Source: Ideonella aquatica (GTDB lineage Bacteria; Pseudomonadota; Gammaproteobacteria; Burkholderiales; Burkholderiaceae_C). Taken from it: a stretch of 64,000 nucleotides of DNA. Location: positions 1 through 64,000 of the forward strand of contig NZ_JAGQDE010000017.1 in the NCBI RefSeq assembly GCF_018069755.1. Direction: 5' to 3'. This document shows, piece after piece, positions 1,823-19,883 of the stretch (its first letter is position 1; each line of letters opens with the position of its first letter). A program made the translations under genes and the position numbers. The notes beneath the pieces are model-generated. The model worked only from the letters and a program-made list of their open reading frames with translations. It did no database searches and was not told the origin of the DNA.

Positions 1823-3574
1823 ATGAAGACAGTCAGATTCATAATTCTTGAGGATGAGGTTGCCGTTATCCACAAGTATCGAAACTACCTTATCCACGGA
1901 GGGGTAGAGCACGATAATATTTGGCCAGATGGCTCGCAAATAACTACCCTTCGCAATGCGCGTTGGATGAATGTAATGCATACCCTTGCGGAGCTCCAGC
2001 AGAAAGGATGGGACCCTACAGCATTCATGACGGTGCTCATACTCGATCTAGCGCTGAATGAAGAGGGTAATCCTTTACTTGGGATAGAGGAGATTCGAAA
2101 GAGCGTCGATTTTCTGGACCAATACGTTATTCTCGTGGTATCCAATTCAGCAGACGCCGCCACCGACAAGCTTGAGGACAAGGTTGATGGGCTTCTAGCA
2201 AAGAGAGATCTCACTGATATTGACCCCAAGGAGGAAGGACCCTACGGTTCTCATAGGTTTTGGACATCAATACGTTCGGCCTGCCAAAGCTGGAGTCGAC
2301 GCACGGGAAGAAAGTCTACACTACCACTCCTACCGTGCGCTCCAGTTGATTCGGACAACATTAGTCTGACGGTGTTTCGTGCCCGCTTCGGTATGCATGC
2401 AATTGACGAGATTGCAAGTTACATAAGTGAGAAGTTTGAAGCCAATCAGCCTCCACATATTTTTATTTCAAATGGAGGATTTTCAGGAGCGGCTGTACTT
2501 CTGATCTTCTTTAGCACAGATAAGGGAGTGCGGGAGATCGCACTCAAGCTTTCGGAGTCGCGTTCTGCGCTCGAGAAGGAGGCTTCCGCCGCTGCTGAGG
2601 CCATTAACGCTGCCGGAAAGTTCGACTACGCCTTTCAGTCCATCAAGGGACCATACCGATTGCCATTAGGAGGCAGAACGGTTTATGGAATGCATCAGAT
2701 ATATTTAAAGGGCACCACTCTTGAACACTCCTTCCTCGATGCGTCAGACAACGATTTCAAGACATCGTTAGCCGAACTAAATCTTATGCTCAACCGAATA
2801 TCCAGATCCGGCATAAGAGATTCCAGACGACTACCAGCAAGCCGCATTCTAGGTGTATCAGAAGAGCAAGTTGAAAGATGCTGCTCGAACGCAGCGGACC
2901 TCCATGGCCTCCATAAGGTTTTCGTTAAGCATGTCGGACACTCTCCATTGGTGGGCGAGATATCCCAGGGCAAACTTGAGGAACTCTGCACCGCCTTAAG
3001 AAATTGGAGTGATTTTTGCGACACGTGTTTTCCGGAGGGTGTAGCCGCATATGAACAGCATGGCGACTTCCACGCCAGAAATATTATGGTTTGCCCATCA
3101 GGGGGCGGGGCACAAATTAAGTTCATTGATTCCGCGAGGTTTGGCAACTGGCCCGCGTTTTATGATATTACAAGACTTAGACTGAACCTCGCTATTCGTA
3201 TGCTAGATCCTGCAAAGTCTCAAATGGAATTTATGCCGGACAGAGTATGGAAGTGGGAGCAAGCGTGGACATCTCGCACCTCTTCTGCAGATCGCATTTC
3301 TAAGCCAGACAAGTATTTGTCTAGGTACAACACCTTTCAGGATGTGATCCTGAAAATCATAGCAAATGTAAAAAGGGAGGAGCCCCAGATAAAGGACTTT
3401 GACTTGACTATTCTTTTGAATGAGTGCTTTGATCTAATTAAAATGATAGGCTATGTCGACATTTCCCCGTTTAGACGGCTTTGGTTATTTTATCGATTGA
3501 TTGATTCTTTTCAAAATATCAAGAGACGTCGTACCGGGCGTCGGATGAAAGTCCGTCAAGGAAGGTTTGCATAA
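1823..3574 (+). CDS. Receiver-like domain fused to aminoglycoside-kinase-fold phosphotransferase; 3' end replaced by IS
   Basis: 583 residues. The N-terminal ~130 residues look like a response-regulator receiver: acidic pair E10-D11-E12 after a beta strand, phospho-acceptor candidate D75 in LILDLAL, S107 in VVSNS and K127 in LLAKRD. The C-terminal part has a Brenner-type catalytic motif of APH/choline kinases, HGDFHARN at 413-420, and the metal-binding Asp D436 in KFIDSARFG. GGAG at 1813 with 6-nt spacing supports the ATG at 1823. The last four codons and the TAA (3560-3574) lie in the inverted repeat of the adjacent IS, so the native C-terminus is missing or altered. Codon use is AT-richer than in the core genes, which suggests transfer. 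The role is unknown; a phospho-relay-controlled kinase in a conflict or signalling system is my inference. Confidence 0.75.
   Translation: MKTVRFIILEDEVAVIHKYRNYLIHGGVEHDNIWPDGSQITTLRNARWMNVMHTLAELQQKGWDPTAFMTVLILDLALNEEGNPLLGIEEIRKSVDFLDQYVILVVSNSADAATDKLEDKVDGLLAKRDLTDIDPKEEGPYGSHRFWTSIRSACQSWSRRTGRKSTLPLLPCAPVDSDNISLTVFRARFGMHAIDEIASYISEKFEANQPPHIFISNGGFSGAAVLLIFFSTDKGVREIALKLSESRSALEKEASAAAEAINAAGKFDYAFQSIKGPYRLPLGGRTVYGMHQIYLKGTTLEHSFLDASDNDFKTSLAELNLMLNRISRSGIRDSRRLPASRILGVSEEQVERCCSNAADLHGLHKVFVKHVGHSPLVGEISQGKLEELCTALRNWSDFCDTCFPEGVAAYEQHGDFHARNIMVCPSGGGAQIKFIDSARFGNWPAFYDITRLRLNLAIRMLDPAKSQMEFMPDRVWKWEQAWTSRTSSADRISKPDKYLSRYNTFQDVILKIIANVKREEPQIKDFDLTILLNECFDLIKMIGYVDISPFRRLWLFYRLIDSFQNIKRRRTGRRMKVRQGRFA
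3560..3574 (+). repeat. Left terminal inverted repeat of IS5-family element
   Basis: GGAAGGTTTGCATAA; pairs with 4729-4743 at 13 of 15 positions. It also supplies the last four codons and the stop codon of the upstream receiver-kinase frame. Confidence 0.85.
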
Positions 3575-3632: not shown

Positions 3633-4595
3633 ATGAAGCAGCACAGCCTGGGCCTGGGACAGACGGCCAAGCTAACGCGGCACCGGGAGTTCCTGGACGA
3701 GATGGAGAAGGTCGTGCCCTGGGCTGATCTGGTGGCATTGGTGTCGCCGTACCTGCCGGAGGGCAAGCGCGGCCGTCCGCCGTTCTCGCCCGAGACCATG
3801 CTGCGTATTCACTTCATGCAGCAGTGGTTCGCGCTGAGCGACCCGGCGATGGAAGAAGCGCTGCACGACATGCCGGTGTTTCGCGAGTTCGCAGGCCTGG
3901 AAGGCTGGGACGAGCGGCTGCCCGACGAGAGCACAATCCTGCGCTTCCGGCATGTGCTGGAGAAGCATAAGCTGGCTGCCCAGATCCTGCAGACCGTCAA
4001 CGACCTGCTCAGCGTCAAGGGCGTGATGCTCAAGAGCGGCACCGTGGTGGACGCCACCTTGATCGCTGCACCCAGCTCGACCAAGAACAGCAGCGGTGAG
4101 CGCGACCCGGAGATGAAGCAAAGCCGCAAGGGCCAGCAGTGGTACTTCGGCATGAAGTGCCACATCGGCGTGGACATCGAGTCGGGCTTGGTCCACACAG
4201 TCAAGGGCACCAGCGGCGCGGTCAACGATGTGATCGAGGCCAACAGCCTGGTGCGCAGCAGCGACCACGAAGTCTTTGCAGACGCTGGATACCAAGGCGC
4301 AGGCAAACGGCACGACGCCCGCGACGACGTGACCTGGCACATCGCTATGCGGCCGGGCTTGCGCAAGACGCTGGACCTCAGCTATCCGATGGATCGTCTG
4401 GTCGAGCAACTGGAGCGGGTCAAGGCCGGAATCCGGGCTCGGGTTGAACATCCCTTCCGGGTGGTCAAACGCCAGTTCGGACATGCCAGGGTGCGCTACC
4501 GCGGCCTGGCCAAGAACACGGCGCAACTGCACACGCTGTTCGCGTTGGCCAACCTGTGGCTGGTGCGTCGCAAACTCCTCGGAGCGATGGCATGA
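3633..4595 (+). CDS. IS5-family transposase (DDE type)
   Basis: 320 residues, a normal length for the IS5 group. The N-terminal part (LPEGKRGRPPFSPETMLRIH..., about 40-110) is the family's DNA-binding region. The DDE catalytic residues can be assigned: D140 in GTVVDATLI, D217 in FADAGYQG and E272 in RARVEHPFRV, followed by the basic KRQFG tail. The enzyme cuts and joins the element ends during transposition. The reading frame is uninterrupted, so this copy may be active. The ATG at 3633 corresponds to the ATG that is followed by a stop in the decayed copy. Confidence 0.95.
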   Translation: MKQHSLGLGQTAKLTRHREFLDEMEKVVPWADLVALVSPYLPEGKRGRPPFSPETMLRIHFMQQWFALSDPAMEEALHDMPVFREFAGLEGWDERLPDESTILRFRHVLEKHKLAAQILQTVNDLLSVKGVMLKSGTVVDATLIAAPSSTKNSSGERDPEMKQSRKGQQWYFGMKCHIGVDIESGLVHTVKGTSGAVNDVIEANSLVRSSDHEVFADAGYQGAGKRHDARDDVTWHIAMRPGLRKTLDLSYPMDRLVEQLERVKAGIRARVEHPFRVVKRQFGHARVRYRGLAKNTAQLHTLFALANLWLVRRKLLGAMA

Positions 4596-5431: not shown

Positions 5432-6811
5432 TTATCGGTCAATGCCAAAGCCGTCCAGCATGACCCTCGTAAGGCTTCGCTCGGCAAGAGACGTATCTGC
5501 CCGAGAGAACACTAATCGTACGCGGCCTAATCCGGCGAGGGCACCAGGCATCCCGCCGTCATCCAACTCCCCAGCATGCTCCAGCGCCAACCGCTGCTGC
5601 AGCGTCCCGCGCTCCCAGAATCGCTCCACCCACGGTGCCAGCCGTTCGGCCCAGTTGGGCGCATCGCCCGCGCCCAGTTGCATCACCAAGCGCCCCTCCG
5701 GCGCCAGCAGCCGCAGCGCGCTGTCCAGCAGCGGCGCGGTGGCAGGATCATCCAGCCGGCGCTCGCCCACATCGATCACGGTCCACTGCCCATCGCCTCG
5801 CGGCAGCGCAGCGGTATCCAGAGGGCCGACAGCATCACCGCCCTCCCCCACGTTGAACCAGCCCGGCCGGTAGCCTGAGCGGCCGTCGTCCAGGTGCAGT
5901 CGATCGGGCAACGGTGGCGCGCTGCCGGCCTGCTGTGCAGCCGCCCGCACCTGTTGGCCCAGTTGCCACGCGGCGCGTGCACCGTCCAGCCGGTCGTCGG
6001 ACAAGCGGCTGCGCCAGTCGCGCTCGGCGATGCCGGCGAACTCCGGCCCGCCCAGGCCGTCGGCCAAGGCACGCAACAGGTCATCCGCCCGCGCCTCGAA
6101 CCAGCGGATGTGCGCGTGGGCGGCATCGTTGGGCAGTGCGACACGGTTGCTGACCTCAGCCAGCACGGGCACGCCGTGGCGCTGGGCCAGGCGCAGGGCC
6201 ATCAGGTCGGGCGTGGCGTCGTCGCGCGGCAGCAGGGCCAGCCAGGCCTGGGCCTGGCTGAGCAGGGCGCGGCGCTCGGGGCCGGCCAGGGGGACGTCGA
6301 TGCGGTGCACGGGCAGGCCCAGGCGTTGCAGGCCGGCCAGCACGGCGTGCTGGCGGTCGTTCAGCGGGCCTTCGACCACCAGGCCCAGCGGGCGTTGGGG
6401 GGTGGGCTGAAAGGGGGTGGCGGGGTCGGGGGCGGGCTGCCACAGCGCGTAGGGCGGCGCCTCGGGCGCGTCGGCGCGGTAGGCGGTCACGGCGGCGGGG
6501 TCGGCGTCCAGCACGGGCCAGCGCTTGAGCAGGCGGCGGGCCTGGGTGGACAGGGCGCTGGCCTCGCCGGTGCCGCGCACCAGCACGCAGGCGTGGCCTT
6601 GCGCGGCAGCGGCATCAAAGCCGTGTTCCACGCCGATCACGTAGTTGATGGCGCCGGGCTGCAGGCGGCGGCGGGCCAGCGTGGGTGCCAGGCCCAGGGC
6701 GCGCAGGTCGTCGCGCAGGGCCAGGGCCAGTTCCAGGTCGTGCAGGCCGGCCCAGGCGCCGGCGGGGGCGGTCACGCACAGGTGGACGGCGGGGGTGGTG
6801 TCTTGGCTCAT
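5432..6811 (-). CDS. Hypothetical protein with glycosyltransferase-like and methyltransferase-like regions
   Basis: 459 residues, 13 bp downstream of the glycosyltransferase-like gene, so co-transcribed. The N-terminal ~250 residues alternate strands and helices in a pattern like a retaining glycosyltransferase (PLGLVVEGPLNDRQHAVLAG..., ...LRLAQRHGVPVLAEVSN...). The last ~140 residues (GRSGYRPGWFNVGEGG, then VIDVGERRLDDP and LRLLAPEGRLVMQLG) recall the second half of a SAM-dependent methyltransferase but lack an obvious glycine-rich SAM loop. Neither activity is certain. Position suggests a role in decorating or processing the giant repeat protein encoded upstream; that is inference. Confidence 0.6.
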   Translation of the reverse strand: MSQDTTPAVHLCVTAPAGAWAGLHDLELALALRDDLRALGLAPTLARRRLQPGAINYVIGVEHGFDAAAAQGHACVLVRGTGEASALSTQARRLLKRWPVLDADPAAVTAYRADAPEAPPYALWQPAPDPATPFQPTPQRPLGLVVEGPLNDRQHAVLAGLQRLGLPVHRIDVPLAGPERRALLSQAQAWLALLPRDDATPDLMALRLAQRHGVPVLAEVSNRVALPNDAAHAHIRWFEARADDLLRALADGLGGPEFAGIAERDWRSRLSDDRLDGARAAWQLGQQVRAAAQQAGSAPPLPDRLHLDDGRSGYRPGWFNVGEGGDAVGPLDTAALPRGDGQWTVIDVGERRLDDPATAPLLDSALRLLAPEGRLVMQLGAGDAPNWAERLAPWVERFWERGTLQQRLALEHAGELDDGGMPGALAGLGRVRLVFSRADTSLAERSLTRVMLDGFGIDR

Positions 6812-7911: not shown

Positions 7912-10900
7912 TCAGAGCAGCGGCGTGTGGCGCTGCAGGTCGTCGTTCTCCGGGCGGAAGACGGCGGCCAGCAGGGCCGGCTGCGACGCGGTGGCCGCGG
8001 CGTGCTCGGTCAGCGCCGCCGGCAGGGCCTGGCTGGGCGCCACCAGCAGCTCGCCCAGGCTGGGCGGGGTGCTGTCAGCCGCGGGCTGCTGCTTGGCGAA
8101 CCAGACGTCGGCCATGGCGTGGGTCTGGCCGTCGGTGCTGGTGTAGCTCGACACCAGGCCCAGCAGGTTGCCGTTGTCGACGTCGCTGCCCTTCTGCGCG
8201 GCCAGGTCCAGGCTGGCGATGCCCAGGCTGTCCAGGCTGCGCAGCTCGCCGGCGTCGGTGACGCCGTCGTGGTTGCCGTCCACCCAGACCTGCAGCTTGC
8301 TCCAGTGCGCATCGGCCGCGTTCAGCACGCCGTCGTGGTTGCTGTCTTCCAGGGCCATGGCCTGGTAGCCGTTGCCCACGTGGTGGCCGTTGGCGTCGCG
8401 GGTGCCGGTGCCGAACAGCTCGGTGCCGTCGTTGATGCGGCCGTCACCGTTGCGGTCCATCACCAGCAGGCCGTCGTTGCCGCCCACCCAGCCCACCTGG
8501 TGGGTGGTGCCGGTGCCGGCCAGGTCGAAGTTCACGCCCTGGGCCGCAGACACGGTCTGGATGCCGTTGCCGTCCAGGTCCAGCACCATCGGGGTGACCA
8601 GGTAGAGCGCGTCCAGTTGCTCGGCGCTCATCACGGCCACGTCCTCGGCCTCGAAGGCGCCGACCTGGTCGGAGGTCATCGCGGCGATGTCGGCGGTCTG
8701 CAGCGCAACGATCTGGTCGGTGGTGAAGGCCGCCACCTGGTCGGTGGTCAGTGCCCGCACCTGGGCCGTCGTCAGAGCCACCACCTCGGCGGTGGACAGG
8801 GCGGCGAACTGCGTGGTGCTCAGCGCAGCCACCTGGGCGGTGGTCAGCGCCGAGAACTGGCTGGCGCCGATGGCCTGCAGGTCCTCGGTGGCGATGGCGG
8901 CGATCTGGTCGGTGGTCAGGCGGGCCAGTTGCTGGGTGCCCAGCTCGGCGAACTGGGTGGTGGTCAGCGCCTCGATCTGCGCGGTGCCCAGGGCCTGCAG
9001 GGCGGCACTGCTCAGGGCGCGCAGGTCAGCCGACTCCATCACCGCCACCTGGGCGGTGGTGAGGGCGGCGGCCTGGGTGGCCGTGAGGGCAGCCGCCTGG
9101 ACAGCGGTCAGCGCCACGATGTCCTGGGTCTCCAGGGCCTCGATGGCCGCGGTGTCCAGGGCACGCAGGCCGGCGGTGGCCAGGGCCACGATGTCGGCGG
9201 TGCCCAGGGCCACGATCTGCTCGGTGGTCAGCGCGTCCACCTGGGCGGTGGTCAGCGCACCCACCTGGGTGGCGCTCAGCGCATCGACCTGGGCGGTGGT
9301 CAGGGCCGCCACCTGGTCGGTGGTCAGGGCGCGCAGGTTGACGGTGCCCAGCGCGGCCATGTCGGCGGTTTCCAGCGCGGCGATCTGGGCGGTGTCCAGA
9401 CCGGCCACCTGGGCGGTGCTGAGCGCGGCCACCTGGGCGGTGGTCAGCGCCTGCACGGCCTCGGTGGCGAGGGCGGCCAGCTGGGTGGTGCTGAGGGCGC
9501 GCAGCGAGGCGGTGGCCAGCGACGGCAGATCAGCGGTGTCAAAGGCGGCGATCTGCTCGGTGGTCAGCGCCGCGGCCTGGGCCGAGGTCAGCGCGGCCAC
9601 CTGGGCCGAGCCCAGGGCCACCCACTGGTCGGTGTCCAGCGCGGCCACCTGGGTGGTGGTCAGCGCGGCCACCTGGGCGGTGCCCAGGGCAGCGACCTGT
9701 TCGGTGCTGAGCGCGCCGATCTGGTCGGTGGTCAGGGCCCGCAGCGCGGTGCTGCCCAGGGCGTGCAGGTCGGCGGTCTCCAGCGCCGCCACCTGGTCGG
9801 TGGTCAGGGCGGCGGCCTGGGTGGCGCTGAGGCTGGCAAAGGCGGCCGTGCCGAGGGCATTGAGCAGGTCGGTGGTCAGCGCCGACAGCTGGGCTGTGCT
9901 CATGGCCGCGGCCTGCGCGGTGCTCACCGCAGCCAGCTGGGCGGTGCCCATGGCGTTGAGCTGGTCGGTGCCCAGGGCCTGCCACTGGCTGGTGCTGAGC
10001 GCGGCCAGGTCCACGGTCTCGATGACCGCCATTTGCGTGGTGGTCAGCGCGGCCACCTGGGCGGTGGTCAGCGCGGCGACGTGGGCGGTGGACAGGGCCA
10101 CCACGTCGTCAGTGTCCATGGCGGCGATCTGGCCGGTGGTCAGGCTGCGCAGCTGCGCGGTGCTGAGCGCGGCCACCTGGGTGGTGGTCAGCGCCTCAAC
10201 CTGGTCGGTGCCCAGGGTGCTGATCTGCGCGGTGGTCATCGAGCGCAGGTCTGCCGTTTGCAGGGCCTGGATCTGGGTGGTGGTCAGCGCAGCGGTCTGC
10301 GACGTTGTCAGGCCGGCCACCTGGGCCGTGGTGAGCGCCACCACCTGGGCGGTGGACAGCTCGGCCAGGGCCTCGGTGCCCAGCGCGGCCAGCGAGGCGG
10401 TGGCGATCAGCGCCAGGTCAGCGGTCTCCAGGCCGGCCACCTGGTCGCTGGTCAGCGCGGCCAGTTGGGCGCTGGTCAGGGCCGAGGCCTGGTCGCTGGT
10501 CAGCGCGGTGATCTGCTCGGTGGTCAGCGCAGCAAAGGCCGCTGTGCCCAGCGAGCGCAGCGCGGTGCTGCCGATGGACGCCAGGTCAGCGGTGTCCAGC
10601 GCGGCGGCCTGGGCTGAGTCGAGCGCCCCCACCTGGGCGGCGGTCAGCGCGGCGAACTGGGTGGTGGTCAGCGCGTTCAGGGCGTCGGTGGCCAGCGCGG
10701 CGATCTGGGCGGTGCCCAGGCCGGCGACCTGGGTGGTGCTGAGTGCAGCCCACTGGTCGGTGGTCAGCGCGTTGAGCTGGTCGGTGCCCAGCGCTCGCAG
10801 CGAGGTGACCGACAAGGCGCGCAGGTCGGCGGTCTCGATCGCGGCCACCTGGTCCGAGCCCAGCGCGGCCAGGTTGGTGGTGGTCAGCGTCAGCCACTGC

Positions 10901-13900
10901 GAGGTGCCCATGGCAGCGATCGCATCGGTGGACAGCGCGGCCAGGTTGGCGGTGCCCAGCGCGTTGAGCGTGGCGCTGCTGAGCGCGGCCACGTCAGCAG
11001 CCTCCAGGGCCGCCGCTTGCGCGGTGTCCAGCGCTGCGGCCTGGCTGCTGGTCAGCGCGGCAAACTGCGCGGTGGTCAGCGCGGCCAGCTGGGCGGTGTC
11101 CAGACCGGCCATCTGGGCCGTGGTCAGGCCGGCCACCTGGGTGGTGGTCAGCGCGGCCACCTGGGCGCTGCCCAGGGCGTTGAGCTGGTCGGTGGACAGC
11201 GTGCGCAGCGAGGCCACGCTCAGCGCGCGCAGGTCGGCGGTTTCCAGCGCCGCCACCTGGTCGGTGCTGAGCGCGGCGAGCTGGTCGGTCGACAGCGCGG
11301 CGGCCTGGGCGGTGGTCAGCGCGATGATCTGGTCGGAGGTCAGCGCGGCCACCGCATCGGTGACCAGGCTGCGCAGCGCCAGCGTGCTGAGCGCGGCCAG
11401 GTCGGCGGTCTCCAGCGCGGCGGCCTGGTCAGAGCCCAGGGCGGCGGCCTGCGCCGAGCTGAGCAGCGCGTAGTGCGCGGTGGTCAGCGCGGTCAGCACG
11501 TCGGTGCTGAGGGCGGCGATCTGCGCGGTGGTCAGGGCGGCCGACTGGGTGGTGGTCAGCGCCGCGACCTGGGCGGTGCCCAGCGCGTTGAGCTGCTCGC
11601 TGCCCATGGCAGCGATCTGGGTGGCGCCCAGGCGCTGCAGGTCGGCGGTTTCCAGCGCGGCCACCTGGTCGGTGGTCAGCGCGGCCACCTGGGTGGCGCT
11701 CAGCGCGCCGGCCTGGGCGGTGGTCAGGGCCACCACGTGGTCGGTGCTCAGGGCGGCCACCTGGTCGGTGCCCAGGCCACGCACGGCGGCGGTGCTGAGG
11801 GCCGCCACATCGGCGGTCTCCAGCGCGGCCAGCTGGGTGGTGCTGAGCGCGGCAGCCTGGGCGGTGGTCAGCGCGGCGAACTGGGCGGTGCCCAGCGCAT
11901 TGAGCTGGGTGGTGTCCAGGCCGGCCACCTGGGCGGTGGTCAGCGCGGCCACCTGGGTCACGGTCAGCGCGGCGATCTGCTCGGTGCCCAGGGCATTGAG
12001 CTGGTCGGTGCCCAGGGCGTTGATCTGCACATTGCTCATGGCGCGCAGGTCATCGGTCTCCAGGGCGGGCAGTTGGTCGCTGGTCAGCGCGGCCACCTGG
12101 GCGGTGCCCAGGGCCATCACCTGGGCCGAGCCCAGGGCAGCGATGGCGTCGGTGCTGAGCGCGGCCACCTGGTCGGTGGACAGGCGCACCAGTTGCGCGG
12201 TGGACAGCGCAGCGGCTTGCAGCGTGGTCAGGGCAGCGACCTGGTCGGTGCCCAGCGCGGCCAGCGCGGCCGAGCCCAGTTGGCGCAGGTCGGCGGTTTC
12301 CAACGCCTGGATCTGGTCGGTGGTGAGCGCAGCCACCTGCGCGGTGGTCAGGGCGGCGACCTGAGCGGCGCCCAAGGCCGCCACCTGGGCGGTGGTCAGC
12401 GCGGCCAGCGTGTCGGTGGTCAGTGCGGCCAGGGCGGCGGTGGTCAGTGCGGCCAGGGCGCCGGTGCTCAGGCTGTCGATCTGGGTGCTGCCGAGGGCGG
12501 CCGACTGCGTGGCGCTCAGCGACGCGGCCTGGGCCGAGGTCAACGCGGCCATGGCGTCGGTGGACAGGGCGGCCACCTGGTCGGTGCCCAGGCCGCGCAG
12601 CGCGGCGGTGCTCAGTGCCGCCACATCGGCGGCTTCCAGCGCACTCACCTGGTCGGTGTCCAGCGCGGCCAGCTGGGCCGAGCTGATCTGGGCGAACTGG
12701 GCGGTGGTCAGCGCATTGAGCGCATCGGTGCCCAGCGCAGCCACCTGGTCGGTGCCCAGCGCGCGCACTTGGGCGGCGGTGAGCACGGCGATCTGGTCAG
12801 AGCCCAGCGCGTTGAGCGCGTCGGTGGCCAGTGCGGCCACCTGGGCGGTACCCAGATGGACCAGGTCAGCGGTCTCGAACGCAGCGAGCTGGTCGCTGGT
12901 CAGCGCGGCGGCCTGGGCCGAGGTCAGCACCGCGGCCTGGGCGGTGGTCAGCGCCACGATCTGGTCGCTGGTCAGCGCGGTGGCCTGGTCGGTGGTGAGC
13001 GCGGCCACCTGGGTGGTGGTGAGGGCTTCCACCTGCGCGGCGGTGAGCTCGACCACCTGGTCGGTGCTCAGGGCCTGCAGCGCGGCGGTGCCCAGGGCGC
13101 GCAGGTCGGCGGTTTCCAGCGCGGCGACCTGGTCGGTCGTCAGGGCGGCGACCTGGTCGGTGGTCAGGGCCGCCACCTGGGCGGTGCCCAGCGCGGCCAC
13201 CTGGGCGGTGTCCAGCGCGGCCAGGGCGTCGGTGGCCAGGGCCGCCACCTGGGCGGTGCCCAGCGCGGCCACCTGGGCGGTGCTCAGCCCGGCCATCTGG
13301 TCGCTGGCCAGTGCGGCGGCCTGGGCCGTGGCCAGGGCGGCCACCTGGGCGGTGGTGAGGGCAGCGATCTGGTCGGTGCCCAGCGCAGCCAGCTGGGCGG
13401 TGCCCAGGCCACGCAGGGCGGCGGTGGTCAGCGCGGCCAGGTCAGCGGTCTCCAGCGCGGCGGCGTGGTCGGTGCCCAGCGCGGCCACCTGGGCGCTGCC
13501 CAGGGCGGCGAACTGGGCGGTGCCCAGGGCCACCAGGTTGTCGGTGCTCAGGCCGGCGATCTGTGCGGTGCCCATGGCGGCGACCTGGCTGGCCAGCAGC
13601 GCGGCCATCTGGTCGGTGGCCAGGGCGTTGAGCTGGGCGGTGCCCAGCGCCGCCACCTGGGTGGTGGTCAGCGCCACCAGGTCGGCGGTTTCCAGCGCGG
13701 CGGCCTGCTCGGTGCCCAGCGCGGCGATCTGCGCGGTGGTCAGGGCGGCGGCCTGTGCGGTGGTCAGGGCGGCGATCTGGTCGGTGCCCAGCGCGGCCAC
13801 CTGGTCGGTGCCCAGGAAGCGCAGTTGGGCGGTGCTGAGCGCGGCCACCTGGTCGGTGCCCAGCGCGCTCACCTGGTCGGTCGACAGGCTTTGCAGCGCG

Positions 13901-16900
13901 GCACTGCCCAGGGCCCGCAGGTCGGCGGTTTCCAGCGCCTGGACCTGGTCGGTGCCCAGTGCGGCCACCTGGGCGGTGGTCAGCGCAGCGGCCTGGGCGG
14001 TGGTGAGGGCGGCCACCTGGTCGGTGCCCAAGGCGGCCAGCGCAGCGGTTTCCAGCGCGGCGACCTGCGCCGTGCCCAGTTGCACCAGGTCAGCGGTTTC
14101 CAGACCGGCGACCTGGTCGCTGGTCAGGGCGGCGGCCTGGGCAGTGGTCAGGGCGGCGGCATGGGCGGTGGTGAGGGCCGCCACCTGCTCGGTGGTGAGG
14201 GCGGCCACCTGGCTGGCGTCCAGGCCGCGCAGGGCCGTGGTGCTCAGCAGGGCCAGGTCTTCGGTCTCAAAGGCGGCCACCTGGTCGGTGCCCATCGCAG
14301 CCACCTGGGCCGAGCCCAGCGCGCCCACCTGGGCGGTGGTCAGGGCGTTGAGCAGGCTGGTGTCCAGCGCGGCGATCTGCGCGGTGGTCAGGCCGGCCAC
14401 CTGGGCCGTCGTCAGTGCAGCGATCTGGTCGGTGGACAGCGCGTTGATCTGGTCGGTGTCCAGCGCCACCAGGCCGGTGCGGCCGATGGCGCGCAGGTCG
14501 GCGGTTTCCAGCGCGGCCACCTGGTCGGTGGTCAGCGCGGCCAGCTGGGCGGTGGTCAAAGCCAGGGCCTGGGCGGTGCCCAGGGCGACGATGTGGCTGG
14601 TGCCCAGGGCCTGGATCTGGTCGGTGGACAGGTGGGCCAGTTGCTGCGTGGCCAGCGCGCTGACCTGGGCGTCACCCAGGGCGGCGATCTGGTCGGTGGT
14701 CAGTGCGCCGATGGCGGCATTGCCCAGGGCCAGCAGGTCGGCGGTTTCAAGGGCCTGGATCTGGTCGGTGGTCAGGCCGGCGATCTGGGCGCTGGTCAGC
14801 GAAGCCACCTGGGCCGAGCCCAGCGCGGCCACCTGGGCGGTGCCCAGGGCGGCCAGGGCCTCGGTCTGCAGCGCGGCCAGCGCGGCCGTGCTCAGGCGGG
14901 AGGCGGCGGCGGTGGTCAGCGCGGCCACCTGGTCGCTGCTCAGCGCCGCCGACTGCGTGGCCGACAGCGCGGCGGCCTGGCCATTGGTCAGGACGGCGAT
15001 GGCGTCGGTGGTCAGCGCGGCGATCTGGGCGGTGCTGAGCTGGCGCAGCGCGGCGGTGCCCAGCGCAGCGACGTCAGCGGTTTCCAGGGCGGCGATCTGG
15101 TCGGTGGTGAGGGCGGCGGCCTGCAGCGCGCTCAGCGCGGCGAACTGGGTGGTGGTCAGCGCATTGATCTGCGCGGTGTCCATGGCGGCCAGCTGGGCGG
15201 TGGTCAGCGCGGCGGTTTGCACGGTGCTGAGCGCGGCCAGCTGGGCGCTGTCCAGGGCATTGAGCTGGTCGCTGCCCAGGCGCACGATCTGCTGGGTGCT
15301 GAGCACCGCCAGGTCGGCGGTTTCCAGCGCGGCCACTTGCTCGGTGGTCAGCGCGGCCACCTGGGCGGTGGTGAGCTGGGCGGCCTGGGCGGTGGTCAGG
15401 GCCTGGATGGCGTCGGTCGACAGCGCAGCGATCTGGTCGGTGTCCAGCGCTCGCAGCGTGGCCACCTTCAGCGCGGCGACGTCGGCGGTTTCGAGGGCAG
15501 CGATCTGGTCGGTGGTGAGTGCCGCGGCCTGGGTGGCGCTGAGGGTGGCCACCTGCTCGGTGCCCAGGGCGTTGAGGGTGTCGCTGCTCAGGCCGGCGAT
15601 CTGCGCGGTGGTGAGCGCGGCCACCTGCACGGTGGACAGCGCGGCCACCTGGGCGCTGCCCAGGGCATTGAGCTGGTCGCTGCCCAGCGCCACCACCTGG
15701 GTGGTGGCCAGCGCGGCGAGGTCAGCGGTTTCCAGCGCGGCCACCTGCTCGGTGCCCAGCGCGGCGATCTGGGTGGTCGACAGGCCGGCGATCTGGGTGG
15801 TGCTGAGGGCGCGCAGGTTGTCGGTGGACAGCGCACCGATCTGGTCGGTGTCCAGCGCGCGCAGCTGCGTGACGCTGAGCGCCAGGGCCTGGTCGGTGGT
15901 CAGTGCGGCGACCTGGTCGGTGCCCAGCGCGGCCATCTGGGCGGTGCCCAGGGCGCGCAGGTCGGCGGTCTGGATGGCGGCCACCTGGTCGGTGGTCAGC
16001 GCGGCGATCTGGGCGGTGGTCAGGGCGGCCACCTGCAGGCTGCTCAGGCCGGCGATCTGCGCGGTGTCCAGGGCGGCGGCCACCTCGGTGCTCAGCGCGG
16101 CGACGGCGGCGGTGCTCAGCGCGGCCAAGTCGGCGGTCTCGAAGCCGGCCACCTGGTCGGTGGTCAGCGCAGCGGCCTGGGTGGCGGTCAGGGCCAGGGC
16201 CTGGTCGGTGGTGAAGGCGGCGAGCTGGTCGGTGCCCAGCGCGGCCACCTGGGCCGTGCCCAGGCCGGCGATCGCGGCGGTGCCGAGGTGGGCGATGTCG
16301 CCGGTCTCCAGGGCGGCGAGCTGGTCGGTGTCGAGCGCCGCCACCTGGCTGGCACGCAGCGCGGCCACCTGGGCGGTGGTCAGGGCCTCGACCTGAGTGG
16401 TCGACAGACCGGCCACCTGGGCGGTGCCCAGCGCGGCGATCTGCGCGGTGCGCAGGGCCTGCCACTGGGCGGTGTCGAGCGCATTGAGCTGGTCGGTGCC
16501 CAGCGCCGCAATCTGCGCGGTGCTGAGGCTGACCAGGTCGGCGGTCTGCAGCGCGGCGATCTGCTCGGTGCCCAGCGCAGCCACCTGGGCGGTGCTGAGC
16601 GCGGCGTATTGGGCGGTGCCCAGGGCCTGCAGGTCGTCGGTGGCCAAGGCCGCCACCTGGTCGGTCGACAAGGCGGCGATCTGGGCGGTGGTCAACGCGG
16701 CGGCCTGGGCCGTGGTCAGGGCGTCGATCTGGCTGCTGTCGAGTGTGCGGATGGCGGCACTGCCCAGGGCCACCAGGTCGGCGGTCTCCAGGGCAGCGAT
16801 CTGGTCAGTGGTGAGTGCGGCGACCTGAGCGGTGCCCAGCGCGGCCACCTGGGCACTGCCGAGTGCCGCGACCTGGGCGGTATCGAGCGCGGCCACGGTC

Positions 16901-18948
16901 TCAGCGGCCAGCGCACGGATGGCAGCGGTGCTCAGGCGCGCCAGGTCGGCGGTCTGCAGGCCGGCCATCTGGTCGCTGCCCAGCGCGGCGGCCTGGGCGG
17001 TGGTCAGGGCGGCGGCCTGGGCCAGGGTGATCGCGGCCAATTGGTCGGTGCCCAGCGCGGCGATTTGGGCGGTGGTCAGGGCGGCAAACGCGGCGGTGGC
17101 CAGCGCAGCCACGTCGGCGGTCTGCAGGGCCGCGACCTGGTCGGTGGTCAGTGCCGCCGCCTGGGTGGCGCTGAGCCAGCTGAACTGGGTGGTGGTCAGG
17201 GCGTTCAGGTTGTCGGTGCTCAGGGCCGAGAGCTGGGCGGTGCTGAGCTTTTGCACCTGCTCGCTGGTCATGGCCACCAGCTGGGCGGTGCCCAGCGCAT
17301 TGAGCTGGGCCGAGCCCAGGGCCAGCACCTGTGAGGTGCTGAGGGCGGCCACATCAGCGGCCTCCATGGCGGCCACCTGGTCGCTGGTGAGTGCGGCGAC
17401 CTGGGCGTTGGTCAGGGCGCGCACCTGGGCGGTGGTCAGGGCTGCGACGTCGGCGGTCTCCAGCGCGGCGATGCGGTCGGTGGCCAGGGCGCGGACCTGG
17501 GCCGTCTGCAGCGAGGCCACCTGGGCGGTCGACAGGGCGGCCACCTGGTCGGTGGTCAGCGCCGCCGTCTGGGCGGTGGTGAGCTGGCGCAGCTGGGCGG
17601 TGCTCAGGGCGCTGAGGCCCTCGGTGCCCATGGCCACCATCGCCGCGGTGCTGATGGCACGCAGCGCGCCGGTGCCCAGTGCGGCGATGTCGGCGGTTTC
17701 CATGGCCGCAGCCTGGGCCGTGGTCAGCGCGGCGGCCTGGGCGGTGGTCAGCGCCTGGATCTGGGCCGAGCCCAGAGCGTTCAGCTGGGTGCTGCCGAGG
17801 TTGGCGAACTGGCCGGTGCTCAGTGCAGCGACCTGGCCGGTGCTCAGTGCGGCGACCTGGGCCGTGGTCAGCGCATTGAGCTGGGCGCTGCCCATGGACA
17901 GCATGTTGCGGGTGGTGATGGCGCGCAGGTCAGCCGTCTCCAGCGCCGCCACCTGGGCGGTGGTCATGGCGGTGATGCGGCTGGCGCTCATCGCAGCGTA
18001 CTGGGTGGTGCTCAGCGCACGCAGGTCGTCGGTGCTGAGCGCCGCCACCTGGGCGGTGGTCAGCGCATTCAGATTGGCGGTCTTCAGCGCCGCCCATTGG
18101 CTGCTGGTCAGCGCGTCGAGCTGGTCGGAGGTCAGCGCGGCCAGCGCGGCGGTCTTCAGGGCATTGAGCTGGGCGGTGCCCAGGGCTGCCATCTGGTCCG
18201 TGCTCAGCGCACGTGCCTGGGCGGTGGACAGGGCATAGATCTGGGCCGTGCTCAGGGCCTGCACCTGGGCCGTGGTCAGTGCTTCCACGGCGGCGGTGCC
18301 CAGCGCCGCCATCTGGGCGGTGGTCAGGGTGCGCAGGTCAGCGGTCTGCATCGCGGCGATCTGGTCGGTGGCCAAGGCCGCGATCTGCCGGGTGGTCAGC
18401 GCCAGGTACTGCGCGGTGGTCATGGCCTGGATCGCATCGGTCGACAGCGCGGCCAGGGCAGCGGTCGACAGGCTGCGCAGCGCGGCCGTGCCGATGGCGG
18501 CCGCGTCAGCCGACTGCAGCGCGGCGGCCTGGGCGGTGCCCAGCGCGGCGATCTGGGCCGAGCTGAGCGCGGCAAACTGCGCCGTGCTCAGGGCGTTGAG
18601 GTTGCCGGTGTCCAGCGCGGCAACCTGGGCGGTGCTGAGCTTGCCCAATTGCAGATTGCTGAGTGCAGCCATCTGGGCATCGGTCATGGCATTGAGCTGC
18701 GCCGTGGTCAGCGCGGCGATGCCGGCGGTGGTGATGGCCCGCACGTCGGCGGTTTCCATCGCCGCGATCTGGGTGGTCGACAGGCCGGACAGGCGGGCCG
18801 CCGGGATGGCCGCGATCTGCGCCGTCGTCAGCGCCACGATCTGCGCGGTCGAGAAGGCGGCCCAGTCTTCAGTGGTCAGACGCGCGATCGTCGCGGTCGA
18901 CAGGGCAGCAATCTGGGCCGTCGTCAGGTTCGGGATGTAGGTGGCCAT
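7912..18948 (-). CDS. Giant octapeptide-repeat protein with C-terminal calcium-binding domain; putative type I secreted surface protein
   Basis: 3678 residues from the ATG at 18948 (MATYIPNLTTAQ), chosen because CTGGAG sits 6 nt upstream; an earlier in-frame ATG at 18996 lacks this. There is no signal peptide. About residues 8-3445 are some 430 near-perfect octads, consensus A-L-[TSG]-T-x-Q-[VIA]-A. These group into blocks of 7 or 10, each opened by an E/Q-T-A-D octad. The last ~230 residues are unique: VLDLDGNGIQT, then Ca-binding loops DRNGDGRIND, DSNHDGVLN and DGNHDGVTD, a domain seen at the C-terminus of large RTX-like/type I secreted proteins. No T1SS genes are in the window. Role inferred: surface adhesin, coat or matrix protein. 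Similar repeats are often auto-annotated 'heme utilization', which nothing here supports. Confidence 0.85.
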   Translation of the reverse strand: MATYIPNLTTAQIAALSTATIARLTTEDWAAFSTAQIVALTTAQIAAIPAARLSGLSTTQIAAMETADVRAITTAGIAALTTAQLNAMTDAQMAALSNLQLGKLSTAQVAALDTGNLNALSTAQFAALSSAQIAALGTAQAAALQSADAAAIGTAALRSLSTAALAALSTDAIQAMTTAQYLALTTRQIAALATDQIAAMQTADLRTLTTAQMAALGTAAVEALTTAQVQALSTAQIYALSTAQARALSTDQMAALGTAQLNALKTAALAALTSDQLDALTSSQWAALKTANLNALTTAQVAALSTDDLRALSTTQYAAMSASRITAMTTAQVAALETADLRAITTRNMLSMGSAQLNALTTAQVAALSTGQVAALSTGQFANLGSTQLNALGSAQIQALTTAQAAALTTAQAAAMETADIAALGTGALRAISTAAMVAMGTEGLSALSTAQLRQLTTAQTAALTTDQVAALSTAQVASLQTAQVRALATDRIAALETADVAALTTAQVRALTNAQVAALTSDQVAAMEAADVAALSTSQVLALGSAQLNALGTAQLVAMTSEQVQKLSTAQLSALSTDNLNALTTTQFSWLSATQAAALTTDQVAALQTADVAALATAAFAALTTAQIAALGTDQLAAITLAQAAALTTAQAAALGSDQMAGLQTADLARLSTAAIRALAAETVAALDTAQVAALGSAQVAALGTAQVAALTTDQIAALETADLVALGSAAIRTLDSSQIDALTTAQAAALTTAQIAALSTDQVAALATDDLQALGTAQYAALSTAQVAALGTEQIAALQTADLVSLSTAQIAALGTDQLNALDTAQWQALRTAQIAALGTAQVAGLSTTQVEALTTAQVAALRASQVAALDTDQLAALETGDIAHLGTAAIAGLGTAQVAALGTDQLAAFTTDQALALTATQAAALTTDQVAGFETADLAALSTAAVAALSTEVAAALDTAQIAGLSSLQVAALTTAQIAALTTDQVAAIQTADLRALGTAQMAALGTDQVAALTTDQALALSVTQLRALDTDQIGALSTDNLRALSTTQIAGLSTTQIAALGTEQVAALETADLAALATTQVVALGSDQLNALGSAQVAALSTVQVAALTTAQIAGLSSDTLNALGTEQVATLSATQAAALTTDQIAALETADVAALKVATLRALDTDQIAALSTDAIQALTTAQAAQLTTAQVAALTTEQVAALETADLAVLSTQQIVRLGSDQLNALDSAQLAALSTVQTAALTTAQLAAMDTAQINALTTTQFAALSALQAAALTTDQIAALETADVAALGTAALRQLSTAQIAALTTDAIAVLTNGQAAALSATQSAALSSDQVAALTTAAASRLSTAALAALQTEALAALGTAQVAALGSAQVASLTSAQIAGLTTDQIQALETADLLALGNAAIGALTTDQIAALGDAQVSALATQQLAHLSTDQIQALGTSHIVALGTAQALALTTAQLAALTTDQVAALETADLRAIGRTGLVALDTDQINALSTDQIAALTTAQVAGLTTAQIAALDTSLLNALTTAQVGALGSAQVAAMGTDQVAAFETEDLALLSTTALRGLDASQVAALTTEQVAALTTAHAAALTTAQAAALTSDQVAGLETADLVQLGTAQVAALETAALAALGTDQVAALTTAQAAALTTAQVAALGTDQVQALETADLRALGSAALQSLSTDQVSALGTDQVAALSTAQLRFLGTDQVAALGTDQIAALTTAQAAALTTAQIAALGTEQAAALETADLVALTTTQVAALGTAQLNALATDQMAALLASQVAAMGTAQIAGLSTDNLVALGTAQFAALGSAQVAALGTDHAAALETADLAALTTAALRGLGTAQLAALGTDQIAALTTAQVAALATAQAAALASDQMAGLSTAQVAALGTAQVAALATDALAALDTAQVAALGTAQVAALTTDQVAALTTDQVAALETADLRALGTAALQALSTDQVVELTAAQVEALTTTQVAALTTDQATALTSDQIVALTTAQAAVLTSAQAAALTSDQLAAFETADLVHLGTAQVAALATDALNALGSDQIAVLTAAQVRALGTDQVAALGTDALNALTTAQFAQISSAQLAALDTDQVSALEAADVAALSTAALRGLGTDQVAALSTDAMAALTSAQAASLSATQSAALGSTQIDSLSTGALAALTTAALAALTTDTLAALTTAQVAALGAAQVAALTTAQVAALTTDQIQALETADLRQLGSAALAALGTDQVAALTTLQAAALSTAQLVRLSTDQVAALSTDAIAALGSAQVMALGTAQVAALTSDQLPALETDDLRAMSNVQINALGTDQLNALGTEQIAALTVTQVAALTTAQVAGLDTTQLNALGTAQFAALTTAQAAALSTTQLAALETADVAALSTAAVRGLGTDQVAALSTDHVVALTTAQAGALSATQVAALTTDQVAALETADLQRLGATQIAAMGSEQLNALGTAQVAALTTTQSAALTTAQIAALSTDVLTALTTAHYALLSSAQAAALGSDQAAALETADLAALSTLALRSLVTDAVAALTSDQIIALTTAQAAALSTDQLAALSTDQVAALETADLRALSVASLRTLSTDQLNALGSAQVAALTTTQVAGLTTAQMAGLDTAQLAALTTAQFAALTSSQAAALDTAQAAALEAADVAALSSATLNALGTANLAALSTDAIAAMGTSQWLTLTTTNLAALGSDQVAAIETADLRALSVTSLRALGTDQLNALTTDQWAALSTTQVAGLGTAQIAALATDALNALTTTQFAALTAAQVGALDSAQAAALDTADLASIGSTALRSLGTAAFAALTTEQITALTSDQASALTSAQLAALTSDQVAGLETADLALIATASLAALGTEALAELSTAQVVALTTAQVAGLTTSQTAALTTTQIQALQTADLRSMTTAQISTLGTDQVEALTTTQVAALSTAQLRSLTTGQIAAMDTDDVVALSTAHVAALTTAQVAALTTTQMAVIETVDLAALSTSQWQALGTDQLNAMGTAQLAAVSTAQAAAMSTAQLSALTTDLLNALGTAAFASLSATQAAALTTDQVAALETADLHALGSTALRALTTDQIGALSTEQVAALGTAQVAALTTTQVAALDTDQWVALGSAQVAALTSAQAAALTTEQIAAFDTADLPSLATASLRALSTTQLAALATEAVQALTTAQVAALSTAQVAGLDTAQIAALETADMAALGTVNLRALTTDQVAALTTAQVDALSATQVGALTTAQVDALTTEQIVALGTADIVALATAGLRALDTAAIEALETQDIVALTAVQAAALTATQAAALTTAQVAVMESADLRALSSAALQALGTAQIEALTTTQFAELGTQQLARLTTDQIAAIATEDLQAIGASQFSALTTAQVAALSTTQFAALSTAEVVALTTAQVRALTTDQVAAFTTDQIVALQTADIAAMTSDQVGAFEAEDVAVMSAEQLDALYLVTPMVLDLDGNGIQTVSAAQGVNFDLAGTGTTHQVGWVGGNDGLLVMDRNGDGRINDGTELFGTGTRDANGHHVGNGYQAMALEDSNHDGVLNAADAHWSKLQVWVDGNHDGVTDAGELRSLDSLGIASLDLAAQKGSDVDNGNLLGLVSSYTSTDGQTHAMADVWFAKQQPAADSTPPSLGELLVAPSQALPAALTEHAAATASQPALLAAVFRPENDDLQRHTPLL
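8605..18936 (-). repeat. 10.3-kb array of 24-bp (octapeptide) repeats in 168-bp and 240-bp super-units
   Basis: The coding sequence repeats every 24 bp with almost no phase breaks. Super-blocks are visible: 7-octad blocks (168 bp) with an x-T-A-A-L-R-x-L octad in second place, and 10-octad blocks (240 bp) with GTDQLNAL in third place, an LNAL octad in seventh and a TxxQFAAL octad in eighth. In the middle of the array the two often alternate, giving a 408-bp period. The 24-bp phase, free of stop codons in other frames, creates very long but meaningless antisense frames. Confidence 0.9.
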
Positions 18949-19172: not shown

Positions 19173-19883
19173 TCACGGCTGGGCGAGCAGCCGCAGCACG
19201 TCGGAGTGGAACTCGCGCCGGTAGAGCAGCGCGACGATCGCGGCCGTGGCGGCCATGAAGGCCCAGGGCGCGATGAACCAGGCCACGGCGGCAAAGGCCA
19301 TGTAGTAGGCGCGCAGGCCGTCGTTGAAGCTCTCGGCAGCCAGGCCCATGACGCCGCCAGCGCGGTCGGCAAAGGCCTGGCGCTCGGGCTCGGTCCAGGC
19401 CTCGTCGCGCTGCGGCGCGGCGGCCAGCAGCAGCGCGCCAAAGCTGTACTGGCGGATGCTCCAGGTGAAGCGGAAAAAGGCGAAGACGAACACGCCGGTC
19501 AGCAGCACCACCTTGAGGTCAAAGACCAGCGCCGAGGTGCGCGCGGCAAACGGGAGTTCGCGCGCCAGCTCGGCCGCCTTGTCGGCGGTGCCCAGCACCG
19601 CCAGCAGGCCGCCGATGATCAGGATGGTGGTGGAGGCGAAGAAGGCCGGGCTGGACGACAGGTTCTGCGTGACCACGCCATCAAACACCCGGTTGTCGCG
19701 CGCGGTGGCGCGCAGCATCCAGGCGTGGCGGGCGCGGTTGGTCAGACCCAGGATCGACGGCCGTGTGGCGGCGCGCCGCCGTGCGAAGGCGGCGTAACCG
19801 ACCCAGCCGACGAAGAACAGCGCCAGCGCCAGCCAGTCGGCCAGCGGCAGCAGGGACAGGGCGTCGACACTGAAGATGCGCAT
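19173..19883 (-). CDS. DUF599 family integral membrane protein
   Basis: 236 residues with about four hydrophobic segments: N-terminal (~12-32), ~85-100 (FFASTTILIIGGLLAVLG), ~120-140 and ~190-220. The block DNRVFDGVVTQNLSSSPAFFASTT is the family signature. Function is unknown. Its stop lies 224 bp upstream of the giant repeat gene on the same strand; pirin lies 27 bp upstream, so the two may share a transcript. Confidence 0.85.
   Translation of the reverse strand: MRIFSVDALSLLPLADWLALALFFVGWVGYAAFARRRAATRPSILGLTNRARHAWMLRATARDNRVFDGVVTQNLSSSPAFFASTTILIIGGLLAVLGTADKAAELARELPFAARTSALVFDLKVVLLTGVFVFAFFRFTWSIRQYSFGALLLAAAPQRDEAWTEPERQAFADRAGGVMGLAAESFNDGLRAYYMAFAAVAWFIAPWAFMAATAAIVALLYRREFHSDVLRLLAQP

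Follow-up and report, generated by a model that had tools for sequence, protein, structure and literature searches.

A giant ALTTAQ-repeat protein of Ideonella aquatica: an octapeptide array with a period of about 3.4 octads, predicted as short helices, and its linkage to GT41 and type I secretion genes in relatives

Several described systems stand closest to the parts of a giant repeat protein encoded in a 64,000-nucleotide stretch of Ideonella aquatica DNA (the window; assembly GCF_018069755.1, contig NZ_JAGQDE010000017.1, hereafter contig C8). The repeat itself, an array of octapeptides (octads), belongs to a family that is already named, PF20080 (ALTTAQ_rpt), which is a sequence model of 38 positions. 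The best PDB profile match to the repeat was 9zem ('HeliScrew4'), whose 120 residues form similar octads (E 3.7e-26) and which differs from the array in being short and, judging by its name, designed; the name also suggests a screw of helices. Another comprises the TPR-GT41 O-GlcNAc-transferase-like enzymes (PF13844), for example the flagellin-modifying FlmG, which share TPR repeats and the GT41 domain with the partner enzymes described below; the latter are set apart by having a giant repeat protein close by and, at several loci, type I secretion genes too. A further one is the self-processing module of FrpC (6sjw, 6sjx), which is reported to bind Ca, to break the Asp414-Pro415 bond and to form an anhydride on that Asp (PMC7078468). 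The reading moderately favoured here is that the Ideonella protein is a glycosylated, type-I-exported rod of octad helices, about 3.4 of which make up one turn.

The open reading frame was found on the minus strand (18948 to 7912; Table 1), with the coordinates and the length of about 3678 residues that the initial annotation had given, and the octapeptide repeat reported there consists of 430 octads in unbroken register. The first 8 residues lie outside the array, which then runs without any insertion or deletion (residues 9-3448) and has the consensus T/G/S-T-A-Q-V/L/I-A-A-L. Position 8 was L, I, M, F or V in all 430 octads, and position 2 was T or S in 388 of them. The match of the array to PF20080 reached 2736.5 bits over 127 stretches, against a gathering cut-off of 26.4 bits. 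No second PF20080 array was found in the same genome, where 150 of 163 candidates were scored and all 116 matches fell inside the repeat open reading frame. The nearest named relative found was that of Ideonella alba, with 91% identity in the best segment and a match spanning residues 1-3678.

Residue autocorrelation showed peaks at all multiples of 8 between 8 and 296 residues over a composition baseline of 0.150, the highest being found at lags of 272 (0.576), 136 (0.545), 192 (0.500), 80 (0.498) and 56 (0.498), so that all four lags that the initial annotation had proposed to check (8, 56, 80 and 136 residues) showed peaks. A total of 43 octads out of 424 tested carried E or Q at position 1 together with D at position 4, and the 42 gaps between these marked octads measured 10 (22 cases), 7 (12), 17 (3), 14 (3) and 4 (2) octads. 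Thus, 34 of 42 gaps were of 7 or 10 octads, far above the values from 10,000 octad shuffles (mean 3.9, maximum 12), which confirms the block structure; the gaps of 14 look like two blocks of 7 whose middle mark was lost. The predominant block order was 10-10-7-7, which makes 34 octads or 272 residues and agrees with the autocorrelation at 272 and 136 residues, while the simple alternation of 7 and 10 (a 136-residue unit) previously described holds in local stretches but not as a general rule. Similarly, the position-specific variants attributed to the blocks proved to be real tendencies rather than rules. Among the 22 ten-blocks, L-N appeared in the third octad of 12, N at position 6 of the seventh octad in 9 (background 28/430) and F at position 5 of the eighth octad in 8 (background 15/430), and R was found at position 6 of the second octad in 6 of the 12 seven-blocks (background 42/430).

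A Fourier analysis over the octads, taking the common residues at every position, gave a single dominant peak at 3.401 octads (27.2 residues), with a power of 342 compared to a maximum of 88 in 200 shuffles. At 3.4 octads per turn, 7 octads correspond to 2.06 turns, 10 to 2.94, 17 to 5 and 34 to 10; since 7 octads make about two turns and 10 about three, marks spaced in this way would fall on one side of a screw, just as residues 3, 4 or 7 apart share a side of an alpha helix. On a wheel of 3.4 octads, E1 and D4 of this protein coincide, while D3 precedes them by about 98 degrees and R6 follows by about 71 degrees. Therefore, the structural register that had been suspected behind the fixed block lengths is supported by the period, both here and in the relatives.

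The period was determined in 56 arrays whose octads run for 60 units or more, namely this protein, its relatives from chromosomal loci and eight plasmid loci, the other 11 of 67 arrays being skipped for their shorter runs; no open reading frame over the array score was present in 6 of the 48 chromosomal loci (L063, L064, L065, L067, L070 and L071). A period of 3.35-3.45 octads was the top peak in 33 of the 56 arrays and among the top three in 48, in all of which it stood above all 100 shuffles; these arrays come from Beta-, Alpha- and Gammaproteobacteria, and some are near kin, so that they should not be read as independent events. Internal repeat lengths were then compared in the 54 arrays with at least 80 octads, the best being 17 octads in 18 arrays, 34 in 10, 27 in 9 and 44 in 7, followed by 48 in 3, 14 in 2, and 10, 54 and 61 in one each. 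Hence, the best lag equals a multiple of 3.4 rounded to a whole number in 52 of the 54 arrays (the misses being 26 and 16), a property that 18 of the 61 possible lags have by chance. Considering the 11 distinct lengths, misses included, only 12 of 5000 random lag sets fitted a period between 3.2 and 3.6 equally well.

These unit lengths bear on a different explanation, in which the blocks of 7 and 10 would be the duplication history of a 34- or 17-octad unit with an accidental internal order and no structural register. Such a history would fit the highest autocorrelation at 34 octads and the near-identical units of some relatives (17-octad identity of 0.94 in L046.1). It is, however, quite improbable, as the relatives with best units of 27, 44, 48, 54 and 61 octads mostly keep the 3.4-octad period, the best lags fall nearest to whole turns far more often than by chance, and D4, D3 and R6 were periodic in all seven proteins examined (E1 in 4/7). 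Because the shuffling of octads also breaks duplications, the unit lengths are the better argument for structure.

Two departures of detail were also observed. The Sphaerotilus arrays (L029 and L066) have a 14-octad unit and a main period of 4.66, with marks spaced 4-4-6 in L029, which is the clearest departure from 3.4. Moreover, spacings of 10 (L030.0, L034.0) or 11 residues (L033, L042, L046, L052, L060) occurred one to three times per otherwise perfect array, where they perhaps correct the register if the unit is a non-whole number of turns.

The fold was predicted with AlphaFold2 from one 34-octad unit (Table 1), together with an alignment of ten further copies that the protein carries in register. 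The resulting model showed 34 short helices per 34 octads, with a predicted local distance difference test score (pLDDT) of 96.2 and a predicted template-modelling score (pTM) of 0.86. The predicted helices begin at octad position 2, and position 1 is S, T, D, G or N in 356 of the 430 octads while position 4 is Q, D or E in 348, so that in the model position 1 is placed as the helix N-cap and position 4 as its capping-box partner. The short N-capped helices proposed in the initial annotation were thus recovered by the model, with a cap placement close to the one guessed, while its beta-solenoid alternative was not. A beta solenoid of the ice-nucleation kind, or else a leucine-rich-repeat fold, would account for the eight-residue periodicity and for the public annotations of some relatives, and the LRR_EndoS model of Pfam also exceeded its cut-off (74 vs. 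27.9 bits), with leucine-rich-repeat chains among the weaker PDB profile matches (best E 3.2e-7). Nevertheless, PF20080 and 9zem scored far above the leucine-rich-repeat models, Pfam gave no ice-nucleation family at E values up to 10, and the unit was predicted to be all-helical, by which both folds were rejected as very improbable. In the Foldseek search, the octad parts of the models matched, among others, short-helix structures of mesothelin and MgtE, no sequence relation to them being seen, and 9zem did not appear among the 50 matches listed. A possible link to viruses was set aside; the matches behind it were a single mycobacteriophage, present in two records with 32% identity, and three BFVD folds with E <0.001 and template-modelling scores (TM) of at most 0.27. 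From the predicted helices and the period together, the array may be a helix of helices, for which the value of about 3.4 octads per turn is taken from the sequence.

The genes accompanying the repeat gene were compared across lineages. Among the eight plasmid records, a TPR-GT41 gene lay near or adjoining the repeat gene in six, five of them by Pfam (Pseudomonas, Rhodovastum, Cereibacter, Rhizobium daejeonense and Pseudoroseomonas) and the sixth (R. anhuiense) by a GT41 profile, which was built from the other five and therefore does not support these. Type I secretion genes were annotated near the repeat gene in the Pseudomonas, Cereibacter and Pseudoroseomonas records; in particular, plasmid pA of Cereibacter sphaeroides 2.4.1 carries the repeat gene, a GT41, an ABC transporter and an HlyD together, no TolC being listed in that stretch. 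In the 48 chromosomal loci, many of which end at contig ends, a GT41 was found in the flank of 10 and a strong HlyD (E 1e-40 or better) also in 10. Furthermore, 40 whole genomes including this one were searched, of which 10 hold the repeat protein. A tree of 51 GT41 domains placed the linked ones in one clade of 28 (support 1.0), hereafter the partner clade, which is distinct from the remaining GT41s of the genus, with two exceptions, the first being two GT41s of a genome lacking the repeat protein (G018) that fell inside it and the second being given below. Two short GT41 fragments, the GT41s on contig C38 of G020 and those from several genomes at the family and order level did not enter this tree. 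A partner-clade GT41 was found on the same contig as the listed repeat matches and within 25 kb of them in 6 of the 10 genomes (G005, G006, G011, G013, G020 and G022), and on another contig in this genome, G003, G004 and G010. Within the genus, all 8 genomes that carry the repeat protein had a member of the clade, compared to 1 of the 8 that lack it (Fisher one-sided p 0.0007).

In this genome, the partner transferase and exporter genes lie on contig C32, separate from the repeat gene on C8. A block of TPR-GT41, ABC transporter, HlyD and TolC genes was found there at about 12.1-18.9 kb, with a 95% match to the I. alba locus (L025). The GT41 domain (PF13844) of its TPR-GT41 protein was matched with E 5.6e-74, the ABC transporter reached 778 bits for TIGR03375 (cut-off 693), the HlyD was above the cut-off of TIGR01843, and the TolC was below that of NCBIfam TIGR01844 and above that of Pfam OEP. 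In I. alba, the repeat gene is followed by the homologues of P0002 and P0003 (Table 1) and then, on the other strand, by TolC, HlyD, ABC transporter and TPR-GT41 genes; this set lies within about 11 kb downstream, and the 10-kb flank ends inside the TPR-GT41 gene. The synteny with I. alba ends at window position 5473. A copy of the IS5-family element at 3633-4595 was located on C32 with 80% identity, past the end of that contig's synteny; an insertion of the element together with a contig break, separating the repeat gene from the C32 block, would be the simplest reading. The type I export suggested in the initial annotation is therefore in line with secretion genes near the gene in some relatives and elsewhere in this genome, and the homologues and the secretion locus for which a profile search had been proposed were both found. 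Of the earlier interpretation as a whole, the helices, the register, the Ca loops and, as a reading, type I export were supported, whereas the beta solenoid and the general alternation of blocks were not, and the GT41 had not been foreseen.

The clade distribution also bears on whether the rod is modified by its neighbour. The rod could be real without being a GT41 substrate, the cluster being a surface-polysaccharide or flagellin-type glycosylation locus that is merely co-localised. This would agree with the sugar-nucleotide, sulfotransferase and methyltransferase genes present at some loci, with one locus that adjoins flagellar genes, with the other GT41 genes of genomes without the repeat protein, and with one genome (G002, about 80% complete) where the partner clade is present and the repeat protein was not detected. 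On the other hand, the partner clade tracks the repeat protein in the genus, it is a near neighbour in records from alpha-, beta- and gammaproteobacteria, and the array is rich in Ser and Thr (731 of 3440 residues), on which grounds a mere co-localisation is regarded as rather unlikely.

The C-terminal domain of the protein (Table 1) was found to be homologous to the FrpC module (profile E 2.3e-36), in support of the C-terminal Ca loops noticed in the initial annotation. Its model, of moderate confidence (pLDDT 70.5), superposed on that module with a TM of 0.77 by target length, sharing the same fold over about 170 residues, the EF-hand-like loops and both tryptophan positions. Both tryptophans and several Asp, Asn and Glu residues of the loops were invariant in the 14 aligned sequences. 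However, where FrpC cleaves Asp-Pro, the repeat protein has Thr-Pro, and because Thr rather than Asp precedes the proline, self-cleavage is not expected in this protein. The same site was Thr-Pro in 27 and Ser-Pro in 14 of the 41 pattern-matched relatives, and a looser look at 67 sequences gave a single relative with Asp-Pro (L054.0). In that protein, from Scleromatobacter humisilvae, the Asp-Pro stands at the module start (residue 3763), and the module is diverged, with a first Ca loop that looks degenerate. The pattern of the FrpC module was matched by none of the seven alphaproteobacterial plasmid relatives, whose C-termini differ. The last 59 residues of the Ideonella protein were modelled with a pLDDT below 50, and the final residues were hydrophobic in the 14 aligned sequences. 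RTX nonapeptides GGxGxDxxx (PF00353) were absent from the repeat protein and from contig C8, while 43 matches were found across the genome.

The exporter and the architecture of the chain were further considered with regard to a giant adhesin of the LapA/BapA kind, which would be held at the outer membrane and act through a binding domain, with the octads as a mere spacer. The ABC transporter on C32 would suit it by scoring above the cut-off for TIGR03375, a subfamily that serves giant adhesins. Yet the octads start at residue 9, which leaves no space for an N-terminal retention module, and no adhesin family was above the Pfam cut-off in the repeat protein, so that such an adhesin is considered unlikely.

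For the favoured rod, the following mechanism is proposed. Each octad would form one short alpha helix with an N-terminal cap running from position 1 to position 4, and successive helices would wind about a common axis, completing one turn every 3.4 units or so, which would align the acidic octads 7 or 10 apart on one side. The partner TPR-GT41 would O-glycosylate the Ser/Thr-rich octads in the cytoplasm, before export, and the type I secretion system would then export the chain with its C-terminus first. The Ca-type domain resembling the FrpC module would fold outside, at the C-terminal end, and the product would be a glycan-coated rod of about 0.1 micrometre at the cell surface, as calculated from about 126 turns and an assumed pitch of about 1 nm (usual helix packing).

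Several observations weigh against this reading. Regarding the fold, the AlphaFold2 alignment contained copies of this protein only, and one of the five models had a pLDDT of 73.5; the Foldseek matches to the octads were weak, the best being mesothelin (TM of at most 0.38), with at most 0.21 for MgtE; and the LRR_EndoS score mentioned above exceeded its cut-off. Regarding the period, 3.4 was not among the top three periods in 8 of the 56 arrays, these being both Sphaerotilus arrays (4.66), Duganella (3.19), L049 (3.28) and four others. In addition, the phases of the periodic residues varied from protein to protein among the seven examined, nearly identical arrays (e.g. L027) gave several harmonics of similar height, and the octad shuffles, which destroy duplicated units as well, do not separate structure from duplication. 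Regarding glycosylation, the linkage of a GT41 to the repeat gene is no proof of a substrate, and neither a report nor data showing that such a protein carries a glycan were found in the open-access literature. Furthermore, no GT41 was found in the stretches fetched from the Shinella and Sinorhizobium plasmid records (2/8) or in the fetched flanks of 38 of the 48 chromosomal loci, the partner transferase of G004 lies on a separate contig, G002 holds the partner clade with no repeat protein detected, and the second exception of the tree, another GT41 of G020 (contig C9), lies about 8 kb from the repeat matches and outside the clade.

As to novelty, no description of the ALTTAQ repeat, of the 'HeliScrew' name or of the screw was found in the open-access literature, nor of glycosylation coupled with type I secretion or of a repeat-transferase-exporter set, and PMC7618410 contained neither 'HeliScrew' nor 'octapeptide'; the papers that mention PF20080 were, going by title, on unrelated subjects. 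The previous statement that the register was not described is only partly right, as the repeat itself is already PF20080 and has similar octads in 9zem. Moreover, the fold of the repeat may be known to protein designers. The 3.4-octad rule and the repeat-transferase-exporter set, neither of which was found in that literature, would be the new elements. A wider proposal, about as likely as not, is that glycan-coated rods are built by an undescribed proteobacterial trio, in which an octapeptide screw is served by a TPR-GT41 and a type I exporter of its own, and that the screw evolves by whole turns at about 3.4 helices per turn (17, 27, 34, 44 and 48 octads), where coiled coils evolve by heptads and hendecads. 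With this, the odd blocks of 7 and 10 become a simple geometric rule that is open to a structural test, and the gene linkage points to an enzyme-substrate-exporter set for the bacterial O-glycosylation of giant secreted proteins. The idea is made testable in a laboratory strain by the set on plasmid pA of Cereibacter sphaeroides 2.4.1, whose repeat protein bears the public name of an ice nucleation protein, and, should the 3.4-octad rule be true, rods of set length could be designed by octad count. The public names of such repeat proteins include 'ICE nucleation protein', 'heme utilization protein' and 'hypothetical protein' (e.g. L077), the first two of which look like misannotations.

Table 1. 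Positions in the window of the repeat gene, its parts and its neighbours.
Feature	Position	Strand	Remarks
Giant ALTTAQ-repeat protein	7912..18948	minus	3678 residues, ATG at 18948, stop at 7912
Octad array	8605..18924	minus	residues 9-3448, 430 octads, single register, dominant period 3.40 octads
34-octad unit modelled by AlphaFold2	13117..13932	minus	residues 1673-1944, one predicted helix per octad, pLDDT 96.2, pTM 0.86
FrpC self-processing-module-like domain	8095..8592	minus	residues 3453-3618, EF-hand-like loops, Thr-Pro replaces the cleaved Asp-Pro
C-terminal tail	7915..8091	minus	residues 3620-3678, low confidence, perhaps a type I secretion signal
P0002	6825..7811	minus	328 residues, weak WsaF_C match (E 0.028, below cut-off); I. 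alba neighbour 99% identical
P0003	5432..6811	minus	459 residues, second downstream neighbour; I. alba neighbour 90% identical
IS5-family transposase	3633..4595	plus	near the contig start, beyond the synteny limit with I. alba (window 5473)

The two genes directly downstream (P0002 and P0003) were also considered as glycosyltransferases and rejected as such. P0002 resembles one by eye, with families below cut-off and a single PDB match at E 0.26, while P0003 had no family match. The two also accompany the repeat gene in I. alba, and one further locus (L026) showed a weak match to P0002. Directly upstream of the repeat gene and in the same orientation, a DUF599 gene (19173-19883) was found, which has matches in I. 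alba and I. paludis. The contig start carries IS5-family transposase genes and an open reading frame with a weak TCAD9 match (332-1171, 1823-3574 and 3633-4595), and on C32 an open reading frame of 1658 residues (L073:14042-19018), for which neither Pfam nor NCBIfam gave a match at E 0.001, lies near the IS5 copy. Finally, other large RTX (PF00353) open reading frames of up to 3205 residues were located on contigs C23, C40, C43 and C44 of the genome.

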